Positions 13,167 through 36,740 of a stretch of DNA of 38,542 nucleotides are shown here, in pieces. The notes below the pieces were generated by a model. The model searched no databases. It was not told where the DNA came from and saw only the letters and a list, made by a program, of their open reading frames with translations. Within the stretch, counting starts at the first letter, position 1. Each line of letters begins with the position of its first letter. The translations under genes and the position numbers were made by a program. The DNA is from an uncultured Oscillospiraceae bacterium (GTDB lineage Bacteria > Bacillota > Clostridia > Oscillospirales > Oscillospiraceae): contig CATONV010000019.1 of NCBI GenBank assembly GCA_951801655.1, forward strand, positions 1 through 38,542. The letters are read 5' to 3'.

Positions 13167-15293
13167 ATGAAAGTCATTAAACGGGACGGAACCAGCGTGG
13201 ATTATGACCGCAGCAAAATTGTGATCGCCATTGAGAAGGCCAATGCTGAGGTTCCCGAGGCGGAGAGGATTGATCGGGAGGGCATCGACGCCATCATCGA
13301 CGGCATCGAGGAGCCCAGGCGCCCCCGCATGCTGGTGGAGGACATTCAGGATCTGGTGGAGCAGGGGCTGGTGGCTGCCAACAAGTTCCACCTGGCCAAG
13401 AGCTATATCATCTATCGCTATAACCGGGCCCTGGTTCGGAAGGCCAATACCACTGACGAGTCTATCCTGGCCCTGCTGCGCAACGAGAACAAGGAACTGG
13501 CTGAGGAGAACTCCAACAAAAATACCATGATTGCCGCCACCCAGCGGGACTATATTGCCGGCGAGGTGAGCCGGGACCTGACCCGGCGCATCCTTTTGCC
13601 CGAGCACATCTCCAGGGCCCATGACGAGGGGGCCATTCACTTCCATGACGCGGACTACTTTGTGCAGCCCATCTTCAACTGCTGCCTGATCAACATCGGC
13701 GACATGCTGGAGAACGGCACGGTGATGAATGGCAAGCTGATTGAGAGCCCCAAGAGCTTCCAGGTGGCCTGCACGGTGGTCACCCAGATTATCGCCTGCG
13801 TGGCCTCCAACCAATACGGCGGTCAGAGTGTGGACCTGCGCCACCTGGGCAAGTATCTGCGCAAGAGCCGGGAGAAATTCAAGGCCCACATCGCCTATGA
13901 GTGCGCCGGCAAGGTGGACGAGGACACCATGGACCGCCTGGTGATGGATCAGCTTCAGTGTGAGCTGAAAAACGGGGTGCAGACCCTCCAATACCAGATC
14001 AACACCCTGATGACCACCAACGGCCAGTCCCCCTTTGTCACATTGTTCCTCAACCTTCAGGAGGGCGATCCCTACATTGAGGAGAACGCCATGATTATCC
14101 ATGAGGTTCTCCGTCAGCGGCTGGAGGGCATTAAGAACGAAAAGGGCGTATACATTACCCCGGCCTTCCCCAAGCTGGTCTATGTGCTGGACGAGCACAA
14201 CTGCCTGAAGGGGGGCAAGTACGACTACCTCACCGAGCTTGCCGTTCAGTGCTCCGCCAAGCGGATGTATCCCGACTACATCTCCGCCAAGAAGATGCGG
14301 GAGAACTACCAGGGCAACGTCTTCTCCCCCATGGGCTGCCGCTCTTTCCTGGCACCCTGGAAAGACGAGAAGGGAAACTACAAGTTCGAGGGCCGCTTTA
14401 ACCAGGGCGTGGTCTCCCTCAACCTGCCCCAGATCGGCATTCTGGCCGGGGGGGACGAGGAAAAGTTCTGGTCCTTGCTGGAGGAGAGGCTGGAGGTGTG
14501 CTTCGAGGCCATTATGTGCCGCCACAACGCGCTGAAAAAGGTGCGTTCCGACTCTTCTCCCATTCATTGGCAGTACGGGGCTATCGCCCGCCTGTCCAAG
14601 GGGGCCTCCATTGAGCCGCTGCTCTACGGCGGCTACTCCTCCATCTCTCTGGGCTACATCGGCCTGTATGAGCTGACCAAGCTGGTCAAGGGCGTCAGCC
14701 ACACCCAGCCCGGCGGTATTGAGTTTGCCCTGGCGGTAATGAACCGGCTGAGAAAGGCCTGCGACGACTGGAAGGCCAAGACCAACATCGGGTTTGCCCT
14801 CTATGGAACTCCCGCCGAGAGTCTGTGCTACCGCTTTGCCCGCATCGACAAGGAACGCTTCGGCACCATTCCCGATGTCACCGATAAGGGCTACTACACC
14901 AACAGCTATCACGTGGACGTGCGGGAACACATTGACGCCTTCGACAAATTTACCTTTGAGAGCCAGTTCCAGAAAATTTCCACCGGCGGCTGCATCTCCT
15001 ACGTGGAGATCCCCAACATGCGCCACAATCTGGAGGCCCTGAAGGATGTGGTCCGGTTTATCTACGACAATATCCAGTACGCCGAGTTCAACACCAAGAG
15101 CGACTACTGCCAGTGCTGCGACTTCGACGGAGAGATCGAGATCAACGAGGAATTCCAGTGGGAGTGCCCCGTGTGCCACAACACCGATCAGTCCAAGATG
15201 AACGTCACCCGGCGTACCTGCGGCTATCTGGGCGAGAACTTCTGGAATGTGGGCAAGACCAAGGAGATCAAGGCGAGGGTTCTGCATCTGTAA
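13167..15293 (+). CDS. nrdD: Anaerobic (class III) ribonucleoside-triphosphate reductase
   Basis: 708 aa. Reduces NTPs to dNTPs with a glycyl radical. An N-terminal ATP-cone (residues 1-90, MKVIKRDGTSVDYDRSKI) gives allosteric control. The middle is the glycyl-radical barrel (IHFHDADYF, QTPPGG-type motif replaced here by HTQPGGIEF). Near the C-terminus four cysteines (CQCC, CPVC) form the zinc site, and RTCGYLG carries the radical Gly686. The ATG at 13167 has AGAGGAGAACAGG upstream; the ten extra upstream codons lack a site. The activase gene nrdG follows after one intervening gene. The enzyme is oxygen-sensitive, which fits a strict anaerobe. Confidence 0.97.
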   Translation: MKVIKRDGTSVDYDRSKIVIAIEKANAEVPEAERIDREGIDAIIDGIEEPRRPRMLVEDIQDLVEQGLVAANKFHLAKSYIIYRYNRALVRKANTTDESILALLRNENKELAEENSNKNTMIAATQRDYIAGEVSRDLTRRILLPEHISRAHDEGAIHFHDADYFVQPIFNCCLINIGDMLENGTVMNGKLIESPKSFQVACTVVTQIIACVASNQYGGQSVDLRHLGKYLRKSREKFKAHIAYECAGKVDEDTMDRLVMDQLQCELKNGVQTLQYQINTLMTTNGQSPFVTLFLNLQEGDPYIEENAMIIHEVLRQRLEGIKNEKGVYITPAFPKLVYVLDEHNCLKGGKYDYLTELAVQCSAKRMYPDYISAKKMRENYQGNVFSPMGCRSFLAPWKDEKGNYKFEGRFNQGVVSLNLPQIGILAGGDEEKFWSLLEERLEVCFEAIMCRHNALKKVRSDSSPIHWQYGAIARLSKGASIEPLLYGGYSSISLGYIGLYELTKLVKGVSHTQPGGIEFALAVMNRLRKACDDWKAKTNIGFALYGTPAESLCYRFARIDKERFGTIPDVTDKGYYTNSYHVDVREHIDAFDKFTFESQFQKISTGGCISYVEIPNMRHNLEALKDVVRFIYDNIQYAEFNTKSDYCQCCDFDGEIEINEEFQWECPVCHNTDQSKMNVTRRTCGYLGENFWNVGKTKEIKARVLHL

Positions 15294-15431
15294 GAAGCGC
15301 CGGATTCCCGGGTAGGGGAGCTTGGACCGGAGCGAGGGGCGCAAACCAAGTGGGGCCAGCGGCCCGGCTGTTTGTGGCCCTAGTCGAAGGGAAAGCGACC
15401 CGGCCGCCCGGGGACCGAGGCGTGACAACAT
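15294..15431 (+). repeat. Family 2 structured repeat, copy 1 (after nrdD)
   Basis: Begins directly after the nrdD stop codon. Shares with the copy after dnaK the blocks TGGACCGGAGCGAGGG, CAAACCAAG, GGGCC-NNN-GGCCC, TGTTTGTG and AGGGAAA. It folds as an 11-position outer stem (15336-15346 with 15370-15380) enclosing a 5-bp GGGCC/GGCCC hairpin (15353-15357 with 15361-15365). The element is bounded by a 19-bp imperfect direct repeat, GAAGCGCCGGATTYCYGGG, at 15294-15312 and 15432-15450. Confidence 0.75.
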
Positions 15432-15447
15432 GAAGCGCCGGATTTCT

Positions 15448-15469
15448 GGGGCCTCCACCCGGAGGCCCC
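15448..15469 (+). terminator. GC-rich hairpin before the YcxB-like gene
   Basis: A perfect 9-bp GGGGCCTCC/GGAGGCCCC stem with a 4-nt loop. Only GATTT follows, so termination would be weak. It may be a partial terminator or a processing site within the nrdD operon. Confidence 0.45.
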
Positions 15470-15494
15470 GATTTACCACAGGAGATGGTTTGAA

Positions 15495-16010
15495 ATGGAA
15501 CAGTACCGAACGATCGGCGTGATGGACAAAGCGGCCCTACAGGAAGTTCAAAAATACCTGTTCCGCTCCCGGCTGGACTGGGTCAGGTGGATTGCTGTGG
15601 CGGTCATTGCCGGATGCGCCTTGCTGGCCCTCATTGCGAGGGACTGGTTTGACGGGGGGCTGTATCTGTTTTTAGCGGCATTCGTTTTTCTATTTCCCCG
15701 CCTGATCCAAAGGCGGTATGTCAAGAATCAGCTTGCCCGAATGCGGGAGAACTCGCTGGAGGGGGTCACCCGCTACGAGAGCTTTTTCACGGTGGACGGC
15801 GTGGTTTTGCGCAATCACACCATACACGGAGAGGTTCTCATGCGGTATGAGAACCTGTCTTTTGTTGCGTCCACTCCCAACCTCTTTTTTGTTATGAGCA
15901 AATCCCGGCAGTTTTTCCTGGTGTTCAAGGACTGCCTGACCCCGGAGCAACAGAAGAGTTTTCCGCCCTTTTTGAAAGAGAAATGCCCTAAACTGAAAAT
16001 CATGCGCTGA
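15495..16010 (+). CDS. YcxB-like domain membrane protein
   Basis: 171 aa. Two hydrophobic segments (about 31-48 and 53-69) are followed by a soluble domain with the YcxB-like pattern: TRYESFFTVDGVVLRNHT, then LMRYENLSFVASTPNLFFVMSKSRQFFLVFKD. Function unknown; the fold resembles PH-like membrane-associated domains. AGGAGATGG precedes the ATG. It lies between nrdD and nrdG, 10 bp from the latter, so it is probably co-transcribed with the reductase genes. I know of no established link to ribonucleotide reduction. Confidence 0.8.
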   Translation: MEQYRTIGVMDKAALQEVQKYLFRSRLDWVRWIAVAVIAGCALLALIARDWFDGGLYLFLAAFVFLFPRLIQRRYVKNQLARMRENSLEGVTRYESFFTVDGVVLRNHTIHGEVLMRYENLSFVASTPNLFFVMSKSRQFFLVFKDCLTPEQQKSFPPFLKEKCPKLKIMR

Positions 16011-16020
16011 GGAGAACATT

Positions 16021-16542
16021 ATGAACTACGCCGATATTAAAAAGGTAGACGTGGCCAATGGCCCCGGGGTGCGGGTGTCTCTGTTCGTATCCGGCTGCAC
16101 CCACCGCTGTGAGGAGTGCTTCAATCCGGAGGCCTGGGATTTTTCCTACGGTTCCCTCTTCGGAGAGGAGCAGATTGCGCAGATCATCTCCCTGCTGGAC
16201 AAGTCCCACATCCGGGGGCTGTCCCTGCTGGGGGGCGAGCCCTTTGAGCCGCAAAACCAGGACTCTGTCCTGGAGCTGGTCCGCCGGGTGCGGGAACAGC
16301 TGCCCGGGAAGACAATCTGGTGCTACACCGGCTGGCGGTATGAGGAGCTGGCCGCCGGCAAAATCGGGGACCAAAGCCGGGAGCTGCTGGAGCAGCTGGA
16401 TGTGCTGGTGGACGGCCCCTTCGTCCTGGCCAAGAAGGACCTGGGACTGCGGTTCCGGGGTTCCTCCAACCAGCGAATCATCGACGTGCCCGCCTCCCTG
16501 GCGGCAGGAGAGGTCCGGCTGGCAGAGGAATATATGCAATAA
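16021..16542 (+). CDS. nrdG: Anaerobic ribonucleotide reductase-activating protein (radical SAM)
   Basis: 173 aa. Uses S-adenosylmethionine and a [4Fe-4S] cluster to make the glycyl radical on NrdD. The radical-SAM cysteines are CTHRCEEC (Cys26, Cys30, Cys33), followed by LSLLGGEPFEPQN and TIWCYTGWRYEEL, as in this family. Length matches the short NrdG type (about 155-175 aa). It is downstream of nrdD in the same orientation, separated only by the YcxB-like gene, and ends at a strong terminator. Confidence 0.96.
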   Translation: MNYADIKKVDVANGPGVRVSLFVSGCTHRCEECFNPEAWDFSYGSLFGEEQIAQIISLLDKSHIRGLSLLGGEPFEPQNQDSVLELVRRVREQLPGKTIWCYTGWRYEELAAGKIGDQSRELLEQLDVLVDGPFVLAKKDLGLRFRGSSNQRIIDVPASLAAGEVRLAEEYMQ

Positions 16543-16546
16543 AACG

Positions 16547-16587
16547 ACGCCCATATCCCGGCATATAATCGGGATATGGGCGTTTTT
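16547..16587. terminator. Strong terminator after nrdG
   Basis: A perfect 14-bp stem (16547-16560 with 16570-16583) and a 9-nt loop are followed by TTTTTA-like sequence on the plus strand. It begins 4 bp after the nrdG stop codon and probably blocks convergent ABC transcription too. Confidence 0.92.
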
Positions 16588-16598
16588 ATGATATAAAT

Positions 16599-16682
16599 TG
16601 TAGGGGCCGCTGCCCTCGGCGGTCCGCGTCAAACCTTTCGCAACGCATGGAAGACGGGGCGCCGAGGGCGTCGCCCCCTACA
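16599..16682. repeat. Family 1 palindromic repeat, copy B
   Basis: 84 bp, TGTAGGGGCCGC...GCCCCCTACA ends, each with the CCCTCGGC/GCCGAGGG hairpin core. Its terminal TGTAG on the minus strand supplies the TAG stop codon of the ABC ATPase gene, so the insertion defines the end of that protein. Confidence 0.88.
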
Positions 16683-17262
16683 GGGCAGCTTTCAGCGGCG
16701 GGCCGTCCAGCTCGATCACGGCGTCGGCGCGGGTGAGGACGGCCGGCTCGTGGCTGACCAGCAGAACGGAGGCGGGCAGGGTGCGTAGCCTTTCCAGAAT
16801 GCGCAGGGCCCTGGGCAGATCCAATCCGGCAAAGGGTTCATCCAGCAGATACAGCCGGGCAGGCAGGGCCAGGCACCGGGCCAGGGCCAGTCGGCGGCCC
16901 ATTCCTCCGGACAGGGCGGCGGGATAGGCGTACGCTTCTCCCACCAGCTCGGCCAGGGCCAGCAGCTCAGAGACCTCGCCATGGCGGTTTCCGGGCAGCA
17001 CGTCGGTGAGGTGCTGCTCCACCGTCCGCCAAGGCAGCAGGCGGTCGTCCTGAAACAGCAGGGAAGTCTGACGGGGTGTGACCCCCTCCACCGTTCCGCT
17101 TTGGGGCTGTTCCAGCCCGGCCAGCACCCGCAGGAGGGTGGTCTTGCCGCACCCGGAGGGCCCGCTGAGGGCGGTGACGCCCTTCTCTGGAATGGTCAGG
17201 GAAAATCGGTCTAAAACCGCCTTGTCTCCGAAGGAGACGGTGAGATTTTTACAGAGTATCAC
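16678..17262 (-). CDS. ABC transporter ATP-binding protein (SsuB/TauB-like)
   Basis: 194 aa, short for the family (often 240-260). Walker [10 protein letters not shown] (34-42), Q-loop LLFQDD (68-73), signature [13 protein letters not shown] (117-129), Walker B LYLLDEP (137-143), SHEP H-loop. It powers the adjacent importer. It starts with a GTG whose last two bases overlap the TGA of the permease gene, which implies coupling. The reading frame stays open upstream, but only because it runs over the permease. The stop codon comes from repeat copy B, so the native C-terminal extension may have been lost. Confidence 0.88.
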
Positions 17263-18011
17263 CTGTCCCACCCCTTTCCCCACCGGGCCAGGCAGGCCCG
17301 GAGCAGGTGCTCCAGCGCCAGACTCAGGGCCACGGTGACCGATGTCCAGGCGAACAGCTCCGGGATGTCCAGGTAATACTTGGTGTAATAAATGCGCTGG
17401 CCCAGAGAGGGTTCGGGCAGACAGAGAACCTCGGCCGCCACCCCCGACTTCCAGGCCAGTCCGGTAGCGGTGGTGAGGGCGGAAAGAATATGCGGCCGCA
17501 GAGAGGGCAGGTAAATAAGGCGAACCGTTTTTCCGCTGGAAAAACGGTACACCTTTGCCAGTTCCAGCAGCTTGGCGTCCATGGCTTGGATGCCCCGGGA
17601 CAGGCTGTCCCATACCAAGGGAGTGACCATCATGGCGGAAATCACCGCCGGGACGTTGTTTCGCCCGGTCCACAGCAGCACCAGCAGAATGAAGGAGGCT
17701 ACTGGGGCGGCCCGCACCACCCGAATGGCGGGGGAGAGGAGACGATCCGCCCAGACAGAGGCGCAGGTGAGAACGGCCAGCGCCGCCCCCGCCAGTACGC
17801 CGCAGGTCAGTCCCAGGGCGATGCGCCCCAGAGAAGAGAGTACTGTTCCCCAAAAGGCCCCTGTCCCCACCAGGCAGACCAGAATATTCCAGACGGAGGC
17901 GGGATAGGGCAGAAGCAGCTCATTGCCCCGGCCGTCCACATGCCGGTCCACCAAAAAGGCGCAGACCTGCCAGACCCCCAGCCAGAAGGCGGGGGCCGGC
18001 AGGGTGTACAT
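17259..18011 (-). CDS. ABC transporter permease (TauC/SsuC-like)
   Basis: About 250 aa, usual length. About six membrane segments. The cytoplasmic EAA-like loop reads [33 protein letters not shown], typical of BPD-type permeases of the nitrate/sulfonate/taurine class. The chosen start is the ATG at 18011 ([10 protein letters not shown]), which gives a normal N-terminus but has only a distant GGGGAGGGG site. An alternative ATG at 18077 overlaps the upstream gene by 14 bp and adds 22 residues unlike a permease. The substrate is not predictable from the sequence. Confidence 0.85.
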
Positions 18012-18063
18012 TATTTTTTTGACCCATTCCCCTCCCCTTCGGGGAGGAGAACAGGAGGAAATA

Positions 18064-19134
18064 TCAGGAGACGCCATAGTAGAAGGAGTCGTAGGGCAGG
18101 CCGCCGCCGATGGACTTGGGCTCCAGCTGGAACAGAACTTCGTAGTAGTCCTCCAGCATGGTTTTCATCTCCTGGCCGGTGACAAAGGTGAGGGAGCACT
18201 GGGGGATGGCCTTGGCGGCCACCTTGTCATTGGGAGCGAACTCGTACTGAGACACCAGAGAAGAGGCGTCGGCGCTGTTGGCGGGGTCGCTGATATAGCT
18301 GATGGACTTCTCATAGGCGGCCAGGAAGGCCTCCACACCCTGGGGGTTCTCCTCAACATACTCGGTGCGGGCCACCACGCAGCCCATGGGCAGGGGGGAG
18401 CCCTCCAGGTCTTGCCAGGCGTCAGACAGGGAAATGGCCTCACGGACGGAGCCGTCTTTCACCAGCAGGGCGGTGGCGGCAGGGACGGGAAGCATGCACA
18501 GCCCTGCGTCAGAGGAGGTCATCTTGGCGGTGATCTCCTGGGGGGTGAGCCACTCGATGCTGACCTTAGAGGTGTCCACGCCGCTGCCCTTCAGCAGGTG
18601 GTTGAGGATGTGCTCCGGGTTGGCCCCCTTGGTGTTGGAGGGGGCGTACAGGGTCTTGCCCGCCAGGTCGGCCATGGAGTGGACGGTGTCCCCCTTCTCC
18701 AGAATATAGAGGACGCCCAGGGTGTTGACCGCCAGCACCTGGATGCCCCCGTCACTTTTGGCGTAGAGGGCGGCGGCGGCATTGGTGGCGATGGCGGCGA
18801 CGTCGACACTCTTGTTGGTCAGGGCGGTTTGGACCTGGGTGTTGTCGGTGACGATCTCATAGGAGGCAATGGCGCTGTTTTGAGCGTCCGCGTCGTGGTC
18901 GGCCATCAGCTTGGCCGCGCCCACGCCGGTGGGGCCGGAGAGGGCCATAAACCGGATGGAGGGGCCGGAGGCCGCGCTGGTATCTCCGGCAGAAGAGGCG
19001 TCCCCGGACCCGTCCGGCTGGCTTGAGCTGGGGGCGGAGGAGGAAGTCCCGGCGGGGGGATTCTTGGGGCCGCAGCCCGCCAGCAGGGACAGAGACAGCG
19101 CGGCGGTGAGGAACAAAGAGAGGGTGCGTTTCAT
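18064..19134 (-). CDS. ABC transporter substrate-binding lipoprotein
   Basis: 356 aa. Signal peptide MKRTLSLFLTAALSLSLLAGCG with a clear lipobox (LLAGC, Cys21), then a low-complexity Ser/Pro/Gly linker (about 22-60), then a periplasmic-binding fold of the NMT1/TauA/SsuA type (TALTNKSVDVAAIATNAAAALYAK, LAGKTLYAPSNTKG). It captures an unknown small ligand outside the cell for the permease and ATPase. The start at 19134 has AAAGGAAG upstream; the longer reading would cover repeat C. The linker is typical of Oscillospiraceae lipoproteins. Confidence 0.9.
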   Translation of the reverse strand: MKRTLSLFLTAALSLSLLAGCGPKNPPAGTSSSAPSSSQPDGSGDASSAGDTSAASGPSIRFMALSGPTGVGAAKLMADHDADAQNSAIASYEIVTDNTQVQTALTNKSVDVAAIATNAAAALYAKSDGGIQVLAVNTLGVLYILEKGDTVHSMADLAGKTLYAPSNTKGANPEHILNHLLKGSGVDTSKVSIEWLTPQEITAKMTSSDAGLCMLPVPAATALLVKDGSVREAISLSDAWQDLEGSPLPMGCVVARTEYVEENPQGVEAFLAAYEKSISYISDPANSADASSLVSQYEFAPNDKVAAKAIPQCSLTFVTGQEMKTMLEDYYEVLFQLEPKSIGGGLPYDSFYYGVS

Positions 19135-19158
19135 AAAAATCTTCCTTTCCGATTGGAA

Positions 19159-19241
19159 TGTAGGGGTCGCCGCCCTCGGCGACCCGCTTGCCACGGCGTG
19201 ATTTCTGTAAAGACGGGCCGCCGAGGGCGGCGGCCTCTACA
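19159..19241. repeat. Family 1 palindromic repeat, copy C
   Basis: 83 bp, TGTAGGGGTCGCCGCC...GGCGGCCTCTACA ends. It lies between the regulator and the lipoprotein gene, inside what appears to be one operon. Confidence 0.88.
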
Positions 19242-19289
19242 GGCGAAATTGCCCCGCCCAGGTGGTCGGAGCCCACATTGGTTATGAGG

Positions 19290-19937
19290 TCACAGCACCG
19301 TCTCCAGCCCGGCGGGGTCGATGACTGTGATGGTCTTGCCCGTTCGGACAATGAGGCCGCTGTCCTCCAGAGAGGAAAAGGCTCGGTAGAGGGAGGCCCG
19401 GCTTATCCCCAGCCGCTGGCACAGCTCCGTGGCCGGGCAGGTGAGAGTGCCCCCGCCAGAGGCCAGCAGGTAGCGGACAAGCTTGCCCTCCACGCCTGGC
19501 TGGGACAGAGTCTGAAGCCGCCCGGAGAGAAAACGGATCCGTCCGGTGAGATAGCGCAGGTAGTTTTCCCGGATTTTCCTCTGCTCAGCCAACAGATGGT
19601 CCACCAGTTGCTGTTCCAGCATCAGGCAGACACTGGGACACCTTGCGGTGATGGTGGTGGCGAACTCCGCCTCGTCGCTGTATAAAGCGGCGGCCCCAAA
19701 CAGGTCGCCCGCCTCCAGAACGCTGACAGCCAGCGTCCCCTTGGTCACCTGGAGCCGTCCAGACAGCACCACGGCCAGGGAGCGGCGGAAGTGACGGGGA
19801 CCGTATACCAGACCGGGAGAGAACTGAACCCGACCGGCCCCCTCCAGCTCCAGAAGGGATTGCAGGAAGGTCGCGTCCACCCCCCGGAACAGAGGGCCTG
19901 CGGTGAGAAGGGCGATTTCCTCACAGGTGAGGGACAA
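19290..19937 (-). CDS. Crp/Fnr family transcriptional regulator
   Basis: 215 aa with the TTG start at 19937, which has TTTGGAGG 8 nt upstream; no ATG fits. The N-terminal cyclic-nucleotide-binding fold (residues about 10-125; LAVVLSGRLQVTKG, LEAGDLFGAAAL) is followed by a dimer helix and a winged helix-turn-helix (ATELCQRLGISRASLYRAFSSLEDSGLI). There is no N-terminal cysteine cluster, so it is not an Fe-S Fnr; the effector is unknown. It is adjacent to and upstream of an ABC importer with no obvious separate promoter, so it probably controls that operon and itself. Confidence 0.88.
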   Translation of the reverse strand: MSLTCEEIALLTAGPLFRGVDATFLQSLLELEGAGRVQFSPGLVYGPRHFRRSLAVVLSGRLQVTKGTLAVSVLEAGDLFGAAALYSDEAEFATTITARCPSVCLMLEQQLVDHLLAEQRKIRENYLRYLTGRIRFLSGRLQTLSQPGVEGKLVRYLLASGGGTLTCPATELCQRLGISRASLYRAFSSLEDSGLIVRTGKTITVIDPAGLETVL

Positions 19938-19955
19938 ATTTGCCACCTCCAAAAC

Positions 19956-19971
19956 TGTCTTATTTGAGACA
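19956..19971. promoter_or_regulatory. Inverted-repeat operator at the Crp/Fnr gene promoter
   Basis: TGTCT-N6-AGACA, a perfect 5-6-5 dyad of the layout bound by Crp/Fnr proteins. It lies just downstream of the -10 box and upstream of the ribosome binding site. Position suggests autorepression by the encoded regulator. Confidence 0.6.
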
Positions 19972-19977
19972 TTTTGG

Positions 19978-20006
19978 ATTATACAGGAGGAGGGAAAAAA
20001 AGTCAA
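19978..20006 (-). promoter_or_regulatory. Promoter of the Crp/Fnr-ABC operon
   Basis: Minus strand TTGACT (20001-20006), 17-bp spacer, perfect TATAAT (19978-19983). Confidence 0.85.
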
Positions 20007-20052
20007 CCCTGGAAATTGCCCGGGCCCCAAGAACGGCGTTTTCGCATCAAGT

Positions 20053-20089
20053 AAAAAACTCCGAAAATCCCTGATTTTCGGAGTTTTTT
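20053..20089. terminator. Bidirectional terminator after the cheY-like gene
   Basis: A 17-position stem (20053-20069 with 20073-20089) with a 3-nt loop, rich in A on one arm and T on the other, so both strands read as a hairpin followed by T. It ends the signalling cassette 5 bp past the stop codon. Confidence 0.92.
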
Positions 20090-20093
20090 TACG

Positions 20094-20456
20094 TTACAGC
20101 AGGGCCTGCTCAAACACCTTCAGCAGCTGCTCCTGGTGGAAGGGTTTATCTACAAAGCCTTTGGCGCCAATGGCCTTGGCCCGTTCAAAGGTGTCGTCGT
20201 ATGCCAAGGAAGAGACCATTACGATTCTGGCGTTGGGATCATGCTTCAAAATAACCTCCGCCGCGTCCAGTCCGTCCATCCCCTGCATAATAATATCCAT
20301 GGTTACCAGGTCGGGCTTCACCGTGGAGTACTGCTCAATGGCTTCTTCACCGCTGCGGCAGTATGCAGCCACCTCGTAATCCGTACCCTTTAAAACATCC
20401 TCAAGCTGGACTCTGACCAGCCGGGAGTCGTCCACTATCATGATTTGCCTGCTCAT
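20094..20456 (-). CDS. CheY-like single-domain response regulator
   Basis: 120 aa, a lone receiver domain. Acidic pocket Asp9/Asp10, phosphoacceptor Asp54 (LVTMDIIM), Ser82 switch (VMVSSLA) and Lys104 (VDKP) are all in place. No output domain, so it must act by protein contact or as a phosphate relay or sink. Its ATG overlaps the cheX stop codon by 4 bp, and the pairing with a CheX phosphatase suggests that CheX dephosphorylates it. Whether it reaches a flagellar motor cannot be told from this window, which has no other chemotaxis or flagellar genes. Confidence 0.9.
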   Translation of the reverse strand: MSRQIMIVDDSRLVRVQLEDVLKGTDYEVAAYCRSGEEAIEQYSTVKPDLVTMDIIMQGMDGLDAAEVILKHDPNARIVMVSSLAYDDTFERAKAIGAKGFVDKPFHQEQLLKVFEQALL

Positions 20457-20956
20457 TTGATATGCCCCTCCTGTTTTGTTTCGCCTGCTCCGTCCTCACT
20501 GGAACAGGGCACATGGTGGATCAGCTGCGCACCTTCGCTGTGTTCATCGGAGTAGGTGAGAATAAACTGTACCTCCTGTCCCTCCGGTTCGTACCGCCCG
20601 TGATAAAACACAGGCTGACCGAAATGGGCTGGGATCTGTGTGGCACGAAACATCGCCCCGGTTACTTTGCCGCAGAGAACATTGAGATATTCCTTGCTGA
20701 ACTCCTCTAAATCCTCCTGTGTCACCGCGTCCTCGTGAAAGGAATTGCGCGCCATGCGGGCAAGCAGACTGGTGTCGGCGCAGAGGGTGAGGCTGGTGTT
20801 AAATCCTCTGTCAAAGGTGATATGCACGGTACACAAGTCTTCGCCCGGCGGCTGGTCTCCCTGATGCAGGCGCACGCCGGCGGTTCTCTCCGTTACGTCC
20901 TGAAGGGCCTGGTCTAGCACCTGCGTAAGTTCTTCTTTGGTCATGGCAGTATTCAT
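20453..20956 (-). CDS. CheX-like phosphatase
   Basis: 167 aa. CheC/CheX/FliY-type fold with one catalytic signature, EFSKEYLNVLCGKVTGAM, which holds the E-x2-N pattern used to dephosphorylate CheY-P. An acidic, Ser-rich tail follows the core. It sits between two receiver genes, overlapping the downstream one by 4 bp and starting 3 bp after the stop codon of the upstream one. CheX normally ends a chemotaxis signal; here the only kinase nearby is a membrane hybrid kinase, not CheA. Confidence 0.8.
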   Translation of the reverse strand: MNTAMTKEELTQVLDQALQDVTERTAGVRLHQGDQPPGEDLCTVHITFDRGFNTSLTLCADTSLLARMARNSFHEDAVTQEDLEEFSKEYLNVLCGKVTGAMFRATQIPAHFGQPVFYHGRYEPEGQEVQFILTYSDEHSEGAQLIHHVPCSSEDGAGETKQEGHIK

Positions 20957-20959
20957 GCG

Positions 20960-21391
20960 TCAACACTCCTCTGCCTTGCTTGGGGGCGTACGGTTCTCCT
21001 CGCTGGATTTCAGCGCCCGCTGAATCCTCTCCAGCAGGTCCTCGGGGAAAAAGGGCTTTAGGATATAGTCGCATATCCCCAGCTTAATACCCTCCATGAC
21101 AAATTTTTTGTCCTCCACGCCGGTGAGCATAATAACCGGGATATCTGCCCGGTCTTCCATAGCGCGGATATCCTGAAGCGTCTCAAAACCGTCCTTGGGC
21201 ATCATGCGGATATCCAGCAAAATCAGGTCGGGCTTTTCCTTTTCCAGATAGCGCAAGGCCCGCACACCGGAATTCACTGTGACTACGTCGTAATATTCCT
21301 CCAAGGCGTCCATAATCTTCCGCAAAATGATGACGGCGTCATCGACTGCCAAAATGCGCTTTTTAGCAGTCCCTTTCTCCGGTTTAAGCAT
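20960..21391 (-). CDS. Stand-alone response regulator receiver
   Basis: 143 aa. Receiver domain with Asp17/Asp18 (AVDDA), phosphoacceptor Asp60 (LILLDIRMMPKDGFETL), Thr90 and Lys112 (LKPF). A short charged tail (KSSEENRTPPSKAEEC) replaces any output domain. It overlaps the end of the hybrid kinase gene by 8 bp, so the two are co-translated, and it is a probable partner of the kinase's HPt domain. Confidence 0.88.
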   Translation of the reverse strand: MLKPEKGTAKKRILAVDDAVIILRKIMDALEEYYDVVTVNSGVRALRYLEKEKPDLILLDIRMMPKDGFETLQDIRAMEDRADIPVIMLTGVEDKKFVMEGIKLGICDYILKPFFPEDLLERIQRALKSSEENRTPPSKAEEC

Positions 21392-24239
21392 TTACGCCTT
21401 CCTCCTTTTCAAGTTTGTGCAGAAGCTGGCCCAGCAGTGCCTCTGCGGCGTCGTCCTCATACAGCTTCAGCTGTTTCTGAATTTCTTTGAGGCTGTCCGC
21501 TGTGTCCTGCGGAAGCTGGTGGCGCAAAACGTCGGCCACAATACCGGCACACTCCCGTGATCTGAAATCCTCCAGCTCATGCAGGGCCGTTTCCACCTGC
21601 TCTCTCAGCTCCTGGCCGGGCAGAGCGGGAAGCTTTTCCTCCTGAGAGACATCTTGACGCAGTCTCTCCAAAAACATTCCAATATTCATCAAAAGCGTCT
21701 CATAGGTCTCCAGCAGGGCGGGAAAGTTCTGGGAAATAAACTCCGTGTCGCCCCGATTTGCGGCGTTCTCCTGGGCGCGGGCCATTTCTGAAACCTCCAT
21801 AGCTCCGATATTGGCGGAGGCGCTTTTCAGCCCGTGTACCTCTACGCAGTAGCGGGAGAGATCGGAGCAGGACAGCTCGTGCAGAAGGGTCGCTTTGCGC
21901 TGTCCATCTGTGTAGTAGAGGTCCAGAAGATCGGCGAAGCCTGCCTCATCGCCAGTGTAGTAGCGGGACGCCGCCTCCAGGTCGATCCCCCGAATTTGAA
22001 AGGAACTCAGATCCACAGCTTCCCCGACCGCCTTGCCGCCCGGACCGCGCCGCCTCTCCTCCGGGACCCAGTGTGCCAGCAGGTTGCCCAATTCTTTCCG
22101 GTCCAGCGGTTTGGCGATGAAATCCTGAAAGCCGCGGCTCAGGAACTGCTCTCGCATCCCCTCCATGGCGTTGGCAGTCAGGGCAATGATTGCGGGCGCG
22201 GTTCCGTTCTCTCCGCAGTCCCGGCGGATAATCTCCGCCGCCTCAATGCCGTCCATCATAGGCATCATATGATCCATGAAAATGATATCATACCGGTTTT
22301 GGCGTACCAGCTCAATGGCCTCCGGCCCGCTCTCGGCCTCAGAAAGGTCAAAGGCGTATCGCTTTAAGAGGCCTCTGGCCACCTTGCGGTTGATCACGTT
22401 GTCGTCCACAATAAGAATTTTCACGCTGGGAGCGGTAAACTGTTCGGTGCATTCCATCTCGGCCTGAGGAATTTCCGGCATCTCCGCAATGGAGCGCCGG
22501 TCCACAATTTTCTGGGGGATGGTGATAAAGACCGTGGTCCCCTGGCCGTAGACACTCTCCACGCGGATGGTGCCGTGCATCAGCTCCACCAGATGCTTGA
22601 CGATGGCCAGTCCCAGGCCGGTGCCCTCCACACTCCGGTTGCGTTTGGCGTTCACCTGACGGAAATCCTCGAAGATTTTTTCCAGGTCGCTCTCCCGAAT
22701 GCCGCAGCCGGTGTCCTCCACGCGGAAGGTAATCAGCTCCTCATCCTCCTGTTCGCCCGGCTCGCCGGTGACATAGGCTCTGACGTAGCCCTCGTTGGTA
22801 AACTTGATGGCGTTGTTGAGGATGTTGATCAAGATCTGCTTGATGCGGCCCTCGTCGCCGTTGTAGCGGCAGGGGAGAGTGTCGTCGCATTCGTATTTCA
22901 AGATCAGGCCGCGCTTGGAGGCGGCCATGTCCATCATGCCCGCCACCTCGTCCACAAGGGTTTTCAGGTGATAGTCCGTGTTCACCAGTTCCATTTTACC
23001 CGCCTCCACCTTAGATAGATCTAAAATGTCGTTGATGATGGCCAGCAGGTTTCTGGCTGCGGACTGTACGTCCTTGGCATGGGTGTAAATCTGGGGATCG
23101 GAGCATTCCTCCATGATAATATCATTCAGACCGATAATAGCGTTCATAGGGGTGCGGATCTCGTGGGACATGTTGGCCAGAAACTCGCTTTTGGCGATAT
23201 TTGCCTTCTCAGCCTGCTGCCGCACCCGCTTGATCTCATTGATATAGGCCTTAATATCGGTCATATCCAGAATCAGGACGACACAGCCCTGTTTCCGCCC
23301 GTTTTCATCCACAATCTGCTTGCTATGGCATTCATAGTGCTGGCCGCTGATGGAAAAGCTCCAGGGGATGTTCTCGTTGAGCATCTCCTCCCGAAAGTCC
23401 TCCACCACCCGTATATTTTCACCCAGCTTGTGGGCGGGCAGACTGGTGAAAATGTGGGCGGCGGCCCGGTTGTAGCTGATCAGTCTGTCGTGATCGTCCA
23501 GGGCGATCACGCCGTCGCCCAGACTTTCCAATACCTTCTCCGCCGCCAGGTGGCGGAAATCGTAGTTGCGTCGGCTCCACACCACGATGACCACCATGGA
23601 CATGGCAATCGCCAGCGTGACCGGGGTGAAGTCGAACACCGTGGTAAGCTTGAACACATAGATGACCAGCACCACGACGGGCAGAGAGGAGATACAGAGG
23701 ATGGTCCAATACTGCCGGCTGACCTGCTGGTCTGAGCGCAGACGCACCGCCCGCGCCAGAGTATGGATGGACAGCACGTAGGGGATTACGATGCGGGTAA
23801 CCATAAAAAGACCGTACAGCGGACCATAGGTAATGCTGATGTAGTGGAATCCGTCTAAAGTGGATAGCCACTGACATTCCCGGTAAAAAAGGCCGTTCCA
23901 GTTAAAAAATACGGTCGGAAGTACAAAAAAATTGATGATGCCAAGGGCACGCAACAGCTTTTTGGGCGGGCGGGCGTAGCAGTAAGTATAGGTAAACCAG
24001 CAATAACAAAGCGGAACAAAGGCGGAGCCCACGTTTTCCACTGTCACTGCGGCGACGGCGGCCTCCAGGGTGGGAGCCGTCAGATCCAGCAGATAGCCCA
24101 CGTTCTGCACCAACGAACCGCACATAATAAAAATCAGCAGCTTTTGCTCCCGGGCCCCGTCTCCGTTGAGCAGCAGGAGCAAAGCTACAAAGGTCAGACA
24201 TATGCCGAAGCATTCCAACACAATGACAAAGTTTACCAT
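21384..24239 (-). CDS. Hybrid sensor histidine kinase (7TM-PAS-HisKA-HATPase-REC-HPt)
   Basis: 951 aa. Residues 1-222 hold about seven membrane segments of the histidine-kinase N-terminal 7TM type; 232-335 a PAS domain (GVIALDDHDRLISYNRAAAHIF); a coiled linker; HisKA with SHEIRTPMNAIIG (phospho-His359); HATPase with N-box (INILNNAIKF), G1 (EDTGCGI) and G2 (GTGLGLAIV); REC at 606-725 with Asp656 and Lys710; HPt with VHGLKSASANIG (His802); and a helical tail to 951. All phosphorelay residues are intact (His-Asp-His), so phosphate could leave to either lone receiver encoded downstream. The ligand is unknown. Confidence 0.93.
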   Translation of the reverse strand: MVNFVIVLECFGICLTFVALLLLLNGDGAREQKLLIFIMCGSLVQNVGYLLDLTAPTLEAAVAAVTVENVGSAFVPLCYCWFTYTYCYARPPKKLLRALGIINFFVLPTVFFNWNGLFYRECQWLSTLDGFHYISITYGPLYGLFMVTRIVIPYVLSIHTLARAVRLRSDQQVSRQYWTILCISSLPVVVLVIYVFKLTTVFDFTPVTLAIAMSMVVIVVWSRRNYDFRHLAAEKVLESLGDGVIALDDHDRLISYNRAAAHIFTSLPAHKLGENIRVVEDFREEMLNENIPWSFSISGQHYECHSKQIVDENGRKQGCVVLILDMTDIKAYINEIKRVRQQAEKANIAKSEFLANMSHEIRTPMNAIIGLNDIIMEECSDPQIYTHAKDVQSAARNLLAIINDILDLSKVEAGKMELVNTDYHLKTLVDEVAGMMDMAASKRGLILKYECDDTLPCRYNGDEGRIKQILINILNNAIKFTNEGYVRAYVTGEPGEQEDEELITFRVEDTGCGIRESDLEKIFEDFRQVNAKRNRSVEGTGLGLAIVKHLVELMHGTIRVESVYGQGTTVFITIPQKIVDRRSIAEMPEIPQAEMECTEQFTAPSVKILIVDDNVINRKVARGLLKRYAFDLSEAESGPEAIELVRQNRYDIIFMDHMMPMMDGIEAAEIIRRDCGENGTAPAIIALTANAMEGMREQFLSRGFQDFIAKPLDRKELGNLLAHWVPEERRRGPGGKAVGEAVDLSSFQIRGIDLEAASRYYTGDEAGFADLLDLYYTDGQRKATLLHELSCSDLSRYCVEVHGLKSASANIGAMEVSEMARAQENAANRGDTEFISQNFPALLETYETLLMNIGMFLERLRQDVSQEEKLPALPGQELREQVETALHELEDFRSRECAGIVADVLRHQLPQDTADSLKEIQKQLKLYEDDAAEALLGQLLHKLEKEEGVNA

Positions 24240-24310
24240 CTTTTCTCTTCACCCGTACGTGTTTTTCTTGATCCCAGGACATATCAAGCGCAACAGTTTT
24301 TACCATACTA

Positions 24311-24339
24311 ACTGTAGTACATTTTCGCTATGATGTCAA
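24311..24339 (-). promoter_or_regulatory. Promoter of the hybrid kinase-CheX operon
   Basis: Minus strand perfect TTGACA (24334-24339), 17-bp spacer, TACAGT (24311-24316). Confidence 0.75.
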
Positions 24340-24415
24340 GAGATTCAGCCTCTTATTTCCGGTATTGCGGCTGTCTGCCAAGGCGTGCGCGCCCGACTCT
24401 AAGCGGAAATGAAAT

Positions 24416-24439
24416 GTCCCTCCGGCACTCCGGAGGGAC
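24416..24439 (-). terminator. Hairpin terminator after dnaJ
   Basis: A perfect 10-bp GTCCCTCCGG stem (24416-24425 with 24430-24439) with a 4-nt loop, followed on the minus strand by ATTTCATTTCC. The T tract is interrupted, so efficiency may be moderate. Confidence 0.7.
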
Positions 24440-24444
24440 GCAGT

Positions 24445-25590
24445 TTATTTTTTCTTTTTCTTTTTGTCAAAGAAGCTCTTCAGCCCGCCCTCGGGGACCT
24501 CCTCGCCCATGGCCGCAGCGAAGGCGTGAAGGGCCGCTTTCTGCTCGGCGTTGAGGGAGGTGGGCACTTGGACCTTGACGGTGACATACTGGTCGCCCCG
24601 GCCCCTTCCCCGCAGCTCGGGAATCCCCTTGCCCCGGAGGCGGAAGGTAGTGCCGGTCTGGGTGCCGGCGGGGAGGCTGTACTTTACCTTGCCGTCGATG
24701 GTGGGAATCTCCAGCTCCGCGCCCATGGCCGCCTGGCAGAAGCTCACCGGACACTCGTAGACCACGGTGGTGCCCTCCCGCTGGAACTGGGGGTGGGGCT
24801 TGATCTGCACCCGTACCAGCAGGTCGCCGGCGGGGCCGCCGTTGACGCCGGCGTTGCCCTGGCCGCGCATGGAGACGGCCTGGCCATCATCGATGCCCGC
24901 CGGGATGGTGACCGACACCCGCTGCTTTTTCCGGACGCCGCCCGCCCCGCCGCACGTCTTGCAGGGGGTATGGATGATCCTGCCTGTGCCCCGGCATTTG
25001 GAACAGGTGGTGGTGGTGGAGAAGGCGAAACCGCCCGCCCCCCGCTGAATGCGCACCTGGCCGGCGCCCCGGCAGTCGGGACAGGTCTCGGCGGTGGTGC
25101 CCGCCGCGCAGCCGGAGCCCTTGCACTCCTCGCAGGTCTCCGTGCGGCTGAGCTCGATCTCCTTGGTACAGCCGAAGGCCGCCTCCTCAAAGGTGAGGGT
25201 CAGGTTGACCCGCAGACTCTCCCCCTTTTGAGGACCGTTCCGTCGGCCCCCGCCGCCGAAGCCGCCCCCAAAGCCGCCGCCGAAGAAGGAGCCGAAGATG
25301 TCGCCCAGGTCGATGTCGCCCATATCAAAGCCGAAGCCGCCGCCTCCGCCGTAGCTGGGGTCCACCCCGGCAAAGCCGAACTGGTCGTACCGGGCCTTCT
25401 TTTCCGGGTCGGACAGGATGCCATAGGCCTCGTTGATCTCCTTGAACTTGGCCTCCGCGTCCTTGTCCCCGGGGTTCACGTCGGGGTGGTACTTCTTGGC
25501 CAGCTTGCGGTAGGCCTTTTTCAGTTCCTCCTCGGTTGCCCCCTTGGACAGACCCAGGACCTCGTAATAATCTCGTTTTTGTTCCGCCAT
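24445..25590 (-). CDS. dnaJ: Chaperone protein DnaJ
   Basis: 381 aa, full length. J-domain with HPD at 35-37, which stimulates the DnaK ATPase; a Gly/Phe-rich linker ([26 protein letters not shown]); four zinc-finger repeats CxxCxGxG ([32 protein letters not shown]); and two C-terminal substrate-binding domains. It ends in a poly-Lys tail. AAGAGGTGATATAAC precedes the ATG. Last gene of the hrcA operon, separated from dnaK by a family 2 repeat. Confidence 0.98.
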
Positions 25591-25619
25591 ATGTTATATC
25601 ACCTCTTGACATGGAAGGT

Positions 25620-25644
25620 GAGCGGGACGGATAAGATCCCGCTC
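25620..25644 (-). other. Hairpin between dnaK and dnaJ
   Basis: GAGCGGGA pairs with TCCCGCTC (25620-25627 with 25637-25644) with a 9-nt loop. It has no T tract on either strand and sits directly beyond the family 2 repeat, so it may be part of that element or an mRNA processing or stability hairpin. Confidence 0.5.
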
Positions 25645-25650
25645 TACCTC

Positions 25651-25783
25651 CTGTCACGCTATGCCTGTTCGCGACGCACGGTTTCCCTCCAACTCGGGAC
25701 ACAAACATCCGGGCCTGCGGCCCTCCTTGGTTTGTATCCCTCGCTCCGGTCCATCCGTGCTGCTCACGACGGCTCCGCGCTTC
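25651..25783 (-). repeat. Family 2 structured repeat, copy 2 (after dnaK)
   Basis: Read on the minus strand it starts directly after the dnaK stop codon with GAAGCGCGGAG and ends GCGTGACAGG, collinear with the copy after nrdD. Outer stem 25730-25740 with 25696-25706 (11 pairs including one G-T), inner GGGCC/GGCCC hairpin. Differences from copy 1 mostly keep pairing. Confidence 0.78.
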
Positions 25784-27631
<1,848 letters not shown>

Positions 27632-36394: not shown

Positions 36395-36740
36395 GGGGCC
36401 GTACCGGTTTCGACGGGGGCATAGAAGCAGGAATAGCGAGCGGATGCGCCTAACATCCTAAAAATGGGCACTTATAAATTAAAGAACGATAACGATTACG
36501 TTCTCGCCGCTGCTTAATGCGGCCGTCCTGCCCGGAAGGACCACGAGCCGGGTCTGGGCGTAGCCTTAGTGGTGCCCGTGCGTTCGGAAAGAGTTGACCG
36601 TTCCACGCATTATGACTCTACCAAACTCAATCGTGTGACGACCCACGTTTGAGTGAGGGAATGTAAACGATCGTCTGCGCTCGGAGAAGTTCCTGTGGAA
36701 GTACTTTCGGACGGGAGTTCAACTCTCCCCGGCTCCACCA
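36395..36740 (+). ncRNA. ssrA: Transfer-messenger RNA (tmRNA)
   Basis: 346 nt. The 5' GGGGCCG pairs with CGGCTCC near the 3' end to make the acceptor stem; discriminator A and encoded CCA follow (36737-36740). The 5' CGGTTTCGACGGGGGC and the T-arm GGGAG-TTCAACT-CTCCC are diagnostic. The tag frame reads AAC GAT AAC GAT TAC GTT CTC GCC GCT GCT TAA (36485-36517), i.e. NDNDYVLAAA, with an AAG codon before it. The internal resume codon was not fixed with certainty. Works with SmpB to release stalled ribosomes and tag the product for proteolysis. Confidence 0.97.

Follow-up and report, generated by a model that had tools for sequence, protein, structure and literature searches.

A dispersed long-hairpin repeat of Oscillospiraceae, often lying directly behind stop codons, is probably a MITE-like family

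A 38,542-nt contig of an uncultured Oscillospiraceae bacterium (CATONV010000019.1, assembly GCA_951801655.1; the window) raises the question of what two similar, strongly folding segments represent, one lying directly behind the stop codon of nrdD (copy 1) and the other behind that of dnaK (copy 2). A first-pass annotation of the window had taken them for an undescribed dispersed 3'-untranslated region (3'-UTR)/intercistronic RNA element. The present analysis points, with a probability of about 0.7, to an apparently unnamed, non-autonomous repeat family resembling miniature inverted-repeat transposable elements (MITEs) of the ERIC, YPAL and BOX kind, each copy forming one long imperfect hairpin. 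The coordinates, collinearity and shared blocks of the two segments were as first described, both copies begin right after the stop codon, and the predicted GGGCC/GGCCC triloop hairpin was found in both. The base changes first ascribed to an outer stem are correct but belong to an inner stem, GGGATACAAAC/GTTTGTGTCCC, in the rod. One window copy retrieved the other from the 2.5-Mb genome by BLAST (E=3e-14), indicating that their likeness is not due to chance. A covariance model, R1, was built from 29 copies, including five own-genome copies found by BLAST, and scored copy 1 at 91.6 bits (E 1.7e-18) and copy 2 at 149.1 bits (E 7.1e-32), both copies being among its building sequences. When folded against 200 dinucleotide shuffles copy 1 gave a z of -4.0 and copy 2 a z of -5.5, both beating all 200, and five further copies gave z values of -2.3 to -4.2 with 0–7 of 200 shuffles as good.

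Each copy is a single rod-like hairpin of approximately 130 nt (range about 125–140 bp; GC content 0.49–0.75). In the rod, the terminal stem is followed by a longer and irregular one, by internal loops that include GGAGCGAG and GAGTCGGAGGGAA, by an ACAAAC/GTTTGT stem and, at the end, by a hairpin that varies. Among 119 matches from the genus (118 distinct rows, including a few 37–44-nt remnants), 37 of 40 pairs carried two-sided, pair-preserving changes, 90.6% of cells were paired compared with 72.8% after shuffling and 34–42% in slid versions, and covariation was 0.438 versus 0.151 when shuffled. The corresponding values for 35 order-wide matches (33 distinct rows; with one exception these come from other genera of the family) were 37 of 40 pairs, 88.6% of cells and 0.513 versus 0.142. 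Because fitting to the model biases both alignments towards its structure, 86 copies outside the model, some of them close orthologues of model copies, were aligned without structure. RNAalifold predicted -64.3 kcal/mol for the sense and -49.4 kcal/mol for the antisense strand of this alignment, compared with -16.8 (sd 3.2) for 30 column shuffles. For 32 pairs predicted on both strands of it, G-U outnumbered A-C by 107 to 64 (226 to 85 in the fitted alignment), an excess indicating that pairing of the sense RNA is favoured, and DNA pairing may contribute to the covariation as well. At the gathering score Rfam 15 reported only the tmRNA of the window and an S10-Clostridia leader (L047; L and G numbers denote loci and genomes), both outside the elements, and copy 2 had no Rfam 15 match at E<=5; membership of a known RNA family was rejected at the thresholds tried.

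The repeat is nearly confined to one taxonomic family. Model R1 found six copies in the bacterium's own genome, five of them in sense 0–3 nt after an upstream stop (of nrdD, dnaK, rpsJ, an ABC solute-binding gene and a beta-CASP-domain gene) and the sixth in the rpsO-pnp leader. BLAST, which the first-pass annotation had proposed as a check, recovered the copies labelled C4, C20 and C15 in this genome and, with it included, copies in 37 of 61 genomes of the genus. At E<=0.001 the model was positive in 40 of the 61, and in 22 of the 31 good assemblies, with 236 matches in total and as many as 13 per genome among at most 55 scored candidates per genome; two of the 40 (G002 and G037) had one near-threshold match each. 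No copy was detected at this threshold in the other 21 genomes, 9 of which are among the 31 good assemblies. An order-wide draw of 245 genomes gave ten positives at E<=1e-4, namely the own genome, eight others of its family (together 9 of the 20 same-family genomes listed) and one elsewhere. An exact-pattern search of named genomes returned 50 stretches, whose record titles name Oscillospiraceae, Flavonifractor, Pseudoflavonifractor, Colidextribacter and Candidatus Enterenecus, the remainder being unspecific (uncultured bacterium, Firmicutes, Bacillota, Clostridiales). Sequence in common linked some of the genus genomes to named strains, G020 for instance to P. phocaeensis An858, and from the titles the family is taken to be Oscillospiraceae. 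A search of phage and plasmid collections with one copy (L039) and of IMG/VR viral contigs with one exact pattern gave no match, and a phage, plasmid or viral origin was rejected on these grounds.

Placement was determined from the calls of a home-made codon-usage gene caller, which missed the YcxB-domain gene at 15495, so the downstream distance recorded for copy 1 is an overestimate. Aligned matches numbered 154, of which 151 were kept as distinct in their surroundings and three were dropped as repeats: 112 lay in sense and 16 in antisense between co-directional genes, 8 and 3 had flanking genes of mixed direction, and 12 had no neighbour in the stretch examined. When the 119 genus matches were grouped by their upstream flanks, 78 sites remained, comprising 58 sense, 7 antisense, 7 of mixed direction and 6 with a missing neighbour. 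The element started between -12 and +5 nt from the stop codon at 40 of the 58 sense sites (42 over all 78), compared with a mean of 3.7 and a maximum of 12 in 10,000 draws of uniform placement, and at none of the 58 was it within 5 nt of the next gene's start. Some of the 78 sites are later array units, which works against the stop signal. The 40 sites represent 33 different upstream genes because flank grouping entered some operons two or three times (dnaA three times; dnaK, rpsJ, rpsO, rplA and dapA twice). At offsets of -3 and -10 the stop codon is partly or wholly provided by the element itself; TAA was present at 33 of the 42 stop-proximal sites, compared with 122 of 225 stops in the background (binomial p 0.0009), although 11 of the 33 TAA stops take an A from the element.

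The upstream proteins of the 40 sites were assigned by Pfam scan in 30 cases (29 with a family, L134 without one), to which nrdD and the solute-binding protein are added, and the other eight (dnaK, rpsJ, rpsO, dnaA and rplA copies) were recognized from their translations. They include the core genes dnaA, gyrB type, rpoA, nusG, rplA, infA, rpsJ, rpsO, efp, groES, dnaK, enolase and tpi, further a prfA type, class II tRNA synthetase, thyA, dapA, mraY type and relA/spoT, and also, among others, a phage portal gene, DUF1385 and a response regulator. Host operons include rpsJ-rplC, rpsO-pnp, dnaK-dnaJ, dnaA-dnaN, groES-groEL and rpoA-rplQ, the downstream partners being named mostly by eye from N-termini and the upstream ones by Pfam or translation. 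The operon setting first claimed for the window copies is clear for dnaK-dnaJ, a site also occupied in other species, and at the other locus nrdD is followed by two co-directional genes.

Comparison of orthologous loci revealed that rpsO-pnp and rpsJ-rplC each lack the element in some species, whereas in others it occupies either of two places. Among 30 rpsO loci inspected by eye, a full element was present directly post-stop in at least four (L185, L188, L196, L209) and within the pnp leader in at least six (L182, L184, L191, L198, L199, L202), the remainder having no element or remnants only, some with other palindromic repeats. The conserved pnp leader is a long hairpin, AGCAGTTGAATATGGG/CCCGTATTCAAGTGCT, two element-free variants of which fold at z -6.6 and -5.6; in the predicted fold of a filled leader (L010) the leader stem and the upper rod are kept, with the element at the apex. 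Full elements were present in four of 30 rpsJ loci (L211, L214, L226, L239), one of the 30 (L229) having been read on the wrong strand. Tandem arrays, in which the unit is repeated with short spacers, were also observed; behind full copies there is often the truncated 5' start of a unit, and in some remnants the interior is missing between the near-repeats GTCGTGAGCA and GTCGCGAACA. The 19-bp direct repeat noted earlier at the ends of copy 1, whose second copy runs from 15432 and by eye agrees at 17 of 19 positions, is such a truncated start of a further unit. The first description as a 3'-UTR/intercistronic RNA element holds in that the family is dispersed, RNA-folding, intercistronic, mostly in sense and often post-stop, with strong covariation and no Rfam 15 counterpart at the thresholds tried. 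The filled and empty sites, leader and antisense copies, and tandem, truncated and internally deleted units indicate a mobile MITE-like repeat rather than a classical 3'-UTR motif. As in MITEs, the units are short, presumably non-coding, dispersed at many non-orthologous sites and heavily base-paired over their whole length.

Several observations nevertheless weigh against a MITE-like origin. No clean target-site duplication was found among 125 length/offset combinations: the strongest signal, a dinucleotide adjoining AGCG..TGA (z 6.5), is fitted equally well by terminal base pairing, weaker signals (4 bases at offset 4, z 4.5, and others) are partly the start of a following unit, and a few arrays show 5–6-bp repeats. 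Element ends were GA..CA in 61 of 119 copies and TA..TA in 20; 45 of the 119 matches had complementary first and last bases, against a mean of 29.7 and a maximum of 38 after shuffling, and these include 36 of the 43 that do not start with G, while G-starters mostly pair with the last-but-one base. The locus stretches examined contained no longer, autonomous relative sharing these ends, whole genomes not having been searched; two mismatch-tolerant end patterns (227 and 190 hits), which suit the commonest subfamily only, gave no unmatched pair 230–4000 bp apart and four unmatched pairs 34–71 bp apart. Copy number was unrelated to Y1_Tnp genes (Spearman -0.06, p 0.65; 61 genomes), which are present in 19 of the 61 genomes; mean copies were 3.5 with and 4.0 without them (Mann-Whitney p 0.58), and eight of the nine genomes with at least 10 copies lack them, the ninth (G012, 12 copies) having six. 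An IS200/RAYT mobilizer was rejected on this account, and no mobilizer was found by examining Y1_Tnp, other transposase and reverse-transcriptase families not having been searched. The filled pnp leader of L010 is predicted to rearrange the element's own lower stem, and covariation this dense would not be expected to persist in ordinary MITEs once inserted. Among the least diverged orthologues (<=10% divergence, 12 comparisons) single changes kept the pair in 23 cases and broke it in 21, slightly above a chance expectation of about 41% that was computed over all comparisons up to 30% divergence, which amounts to near-neutral decay. A different palindromic repeat of the GTAGGG type is present at 40 places in 170 loci; 11 of its 23 sense cases lie within 15 nt after the stop, where 1.3 would be expected and 2000 draws gave at most 7, and none lies within 5 nt. 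Stop anchoring as a special trait of the hairpin repeat is partly weakened by this control, which is small, includes the rpsJ loci and takes its distance from the GTAGGG motif, not the repeat's end.

Orthologous sites of greater divergence bear on an alternative that we consider unlikely, namely that the copies are cis-acting RNA regulators (protein-binding or RNase-processing sites), selected at each site to set the ratio of neighbouring genes, with spread being incidental. Pairs were mostly kept at 10–20% divergence (8 comparisons; single changes 25 kept versus 8 broken, two-sided 28 versus 6, all changes 53 versus 14) and at 20–30% (27 comparisons; 96 versus 69, 146 versus 45 and 242 versus 114), and above 30% single changes were kept in 44 and broken in 86 cases, two-sided in 210 and 87. 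Such conservation agrees with a regulator, as do the sense bias, the stop anchoring, the G-U excess on the sense strand and the many core genes upstream, but presence at the same operon differs between species of the genus, 21 genomes are without a copy at E<=0.001, antisense and leader-region copies occur, a different palindromic repeat fills the same post-stop gap at rpsJ (by eye), and the closest orthologues decay almost neutrally. Selection on the copies in situ appears mixed on these sequence comparisons, and proven function at each site is not claimed because the comparisons are non-independent and copy replacement could mimic kept pairs. An intrinsic terminator or attenuator is extremely improbable: copies do place a strong GC-rich hairpin after stop codons, and a terminator scan flagged the inner hairpin of both window copies on both strands (2 per region, 0.3–0.4 expected), but what was flagged as T-rich in sense is GTTTGT, a pairing arm of the rod rather than a free U-run, no T-run follows either whole copy, so that a hairpin directly followed by a U-run is absent from the window copies, and inside operons such as rpsJ-rplC, where copies lie, termination would do harm.

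The sense-strand covariation and sense bias, together with 5' fragments behind full copies and an anchoring at stop codons that often belong to genes for which high expression is expected, would also fit a retroelement akin to a short interspersed nuclear element (SINE), whose transcript would be reverse-transcribed in trans and inserted near the stops of transcribed genes; no poly-A or similar 3' tail was seen in the junctions and selection also predicts a sense bias, and this reading is very improbable. A further, quite improbable proposal links insertion to the termination of translation or to the transcribed RNA, the hairpin repeatedly re-entering at the post-stop base, older copies being pushed downstream and selection at the RNA level keeping foldability; it could take an RNA-mobilized (SINE-like) or a stop-codon-programmed form, with the stops of highly expressed genes as targets.

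The MITE-like reading places the family in a known kind of repeat, distinguished by unusually strong covariation and stop-codon anchoring. ERIC, YPAL, BOX and NEMIS are of the same kind, short repeats in transcribed gaps, and effects on mRNA are reported for ERIC and NEMIS, with RNase E proposed for the former and RNase III for the latter. ERIC (IRU, RU-1) is an enterobacterial repeat of 127 bp with 5'-TA-3' ends that resembles the present family in its single long stem-loop, similar length and intergenic position, and is co-transcribed in operons with an orientation-dependent effect on mRNA stability (PMC2229807, PMC3049150, PMC2267715); it differs, in a comparison by description, in its TA ends and enterobacterial hosts, the present repeat, TA-ended in only 20 of 119 copies, not sharing the termini of ERIC/IRU and being hosted by Oscillospiraceae. 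YPAL (RU-2) is likewise not A+T-rich, has no regular TA ends, targets sites adjoining dyad symmetry and shows empty and filled sites with variable duplications (PMC2229807); again by description, it differs in taxon (Yersinia) and length (~168 bp), and the passages describing it do not mention the stop-codon anchoring seen here. BOX of Streptococcus pneumoniae is intergenic and often supplies the upstream gene's stop codon (in 36 of 58 CDSs overlapping a BOX; PMC3049150), but as described it is built of boxA, boxB and boxC modules with ends linking it to ISSpn2, no such IS having been found here. REP/BIME sequences with RAYT are also palindromic, intergenic and present in operons; REPs measure 20–40 bp (PMC3733652), and with a unit of ~130 nt and no Y1_Tnp link the present repeat was not assigned to them. 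Searches of Rfam 15 and of an open-access library (subscription papers being largely outside the scope) gave no name or description for the family.

On the MITE-like reading, the repeat would have spread through these genomes as a unit, and copies would have settled where a self-contained RNA hairpin harms least, in operon gaps between a stop and the next leader and in leader-RNA loops; tolerance rather than targeting may account for the places occupied. Many host operons are housekeeping operons, and post-stop copies would be transcribed into their mRNA, where the rod might block 3'-5' exonucleases or be cut by an RNase; either could lead to unequal expression of upstream and downstream genes, in favour of one or the other. 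A hairpin between operon genes would then alter the stability of the upstream message. A new, well-supported family of transcribed-looking hairpin repeats is available for Pseudoflavonifractor, Flavonifractor and relatives, for which the literature searches found none, and it places a structured sequence of ~130 nt inside core operons. Since some sites exist in both a filled and an empty state, the influence of the repeat on operon expression can be tested directly, and its stop-codon anchoring raises the question of targeting or tolerance.

Table 1. Positions of the hairpin repeat and other features in the window
Feature	Position	Strand	Basis or remark
Hairpin repeat copy 1	15294..15427	+	First base directly after nrdD stop TAA (15291-15293)
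Hairpin repeat copy 2	25652..25783	-	Between dnaK and dnaJ; first base directly after dnaK stop
Truncated 5' start of second unit	15432..15450	+	Sequence; like arrangement behind many copies elsewhere
nrdD, upstream of copy 1	13167..15293	+	Pfam NRDD, Gly_radical, ATP-cone
YcxB-domain gene, between nrdD and 4Fe-4S protein gene, 3' of copy 1	15495..16010	+	Pfam PF14317, E 2.8e-06
4Fe-4S protein gene	16021..16542	+	Pfam Fer4_12
dnaK, upstream of copy 2	25784..27586	-	Pfam HSP70; true start may be further upstream
dnaJ, downstream of copy 2	24445..25590	-	Pfam DnaJ, DnaJ_C
tmRNA gene	36395-36740	+	Rfam RF00023, 145.9 bits

The 4Fe-4S protein gene is probably nrdG, a name suggested by its position after nrdD. 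The only out-of-family match (L101, 1501-1635) is weak (35 bits), is followed by a repeat of its own start and is perhaps a distant relative. Around 2488-2618 of L123 a copy lies directly behind the phage portal gene, and the element may therefore ride on a prophage. Convergent copy pairs about 60 nt apart were seen in L102 and L117 of genome G292, which belongs to another genus. Within the rpsJ-rplC gap of other species (L212, L213, L215 and L221-L224) the GTAGGG.. palindromic repeat occupies the same post-stop place (by eye). A second short palindromic repeat (GGCCGATTCCCCCTGTCAGGGGGAAAT..) is present at the same internal place in the copies of L051 and L204. Recurrent antisense copies were observed in L096, L100, L103 and L163, and all of these but L100 show a CTTGC-like repeat to either side of the copy; the leader at the four loci resembles a T-box, for which Rfam made no call at the gathering score in L103, the locus tested. 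A recurrent insertion site follows the conserved stretch CTCGTCCAAGC in ten loci (L085, L129, L131, L137, L141, L142, L144, L146, L159, L177), lying 5' of a sense gene; in 6 of these loci the gene at its opposite side is divergent.

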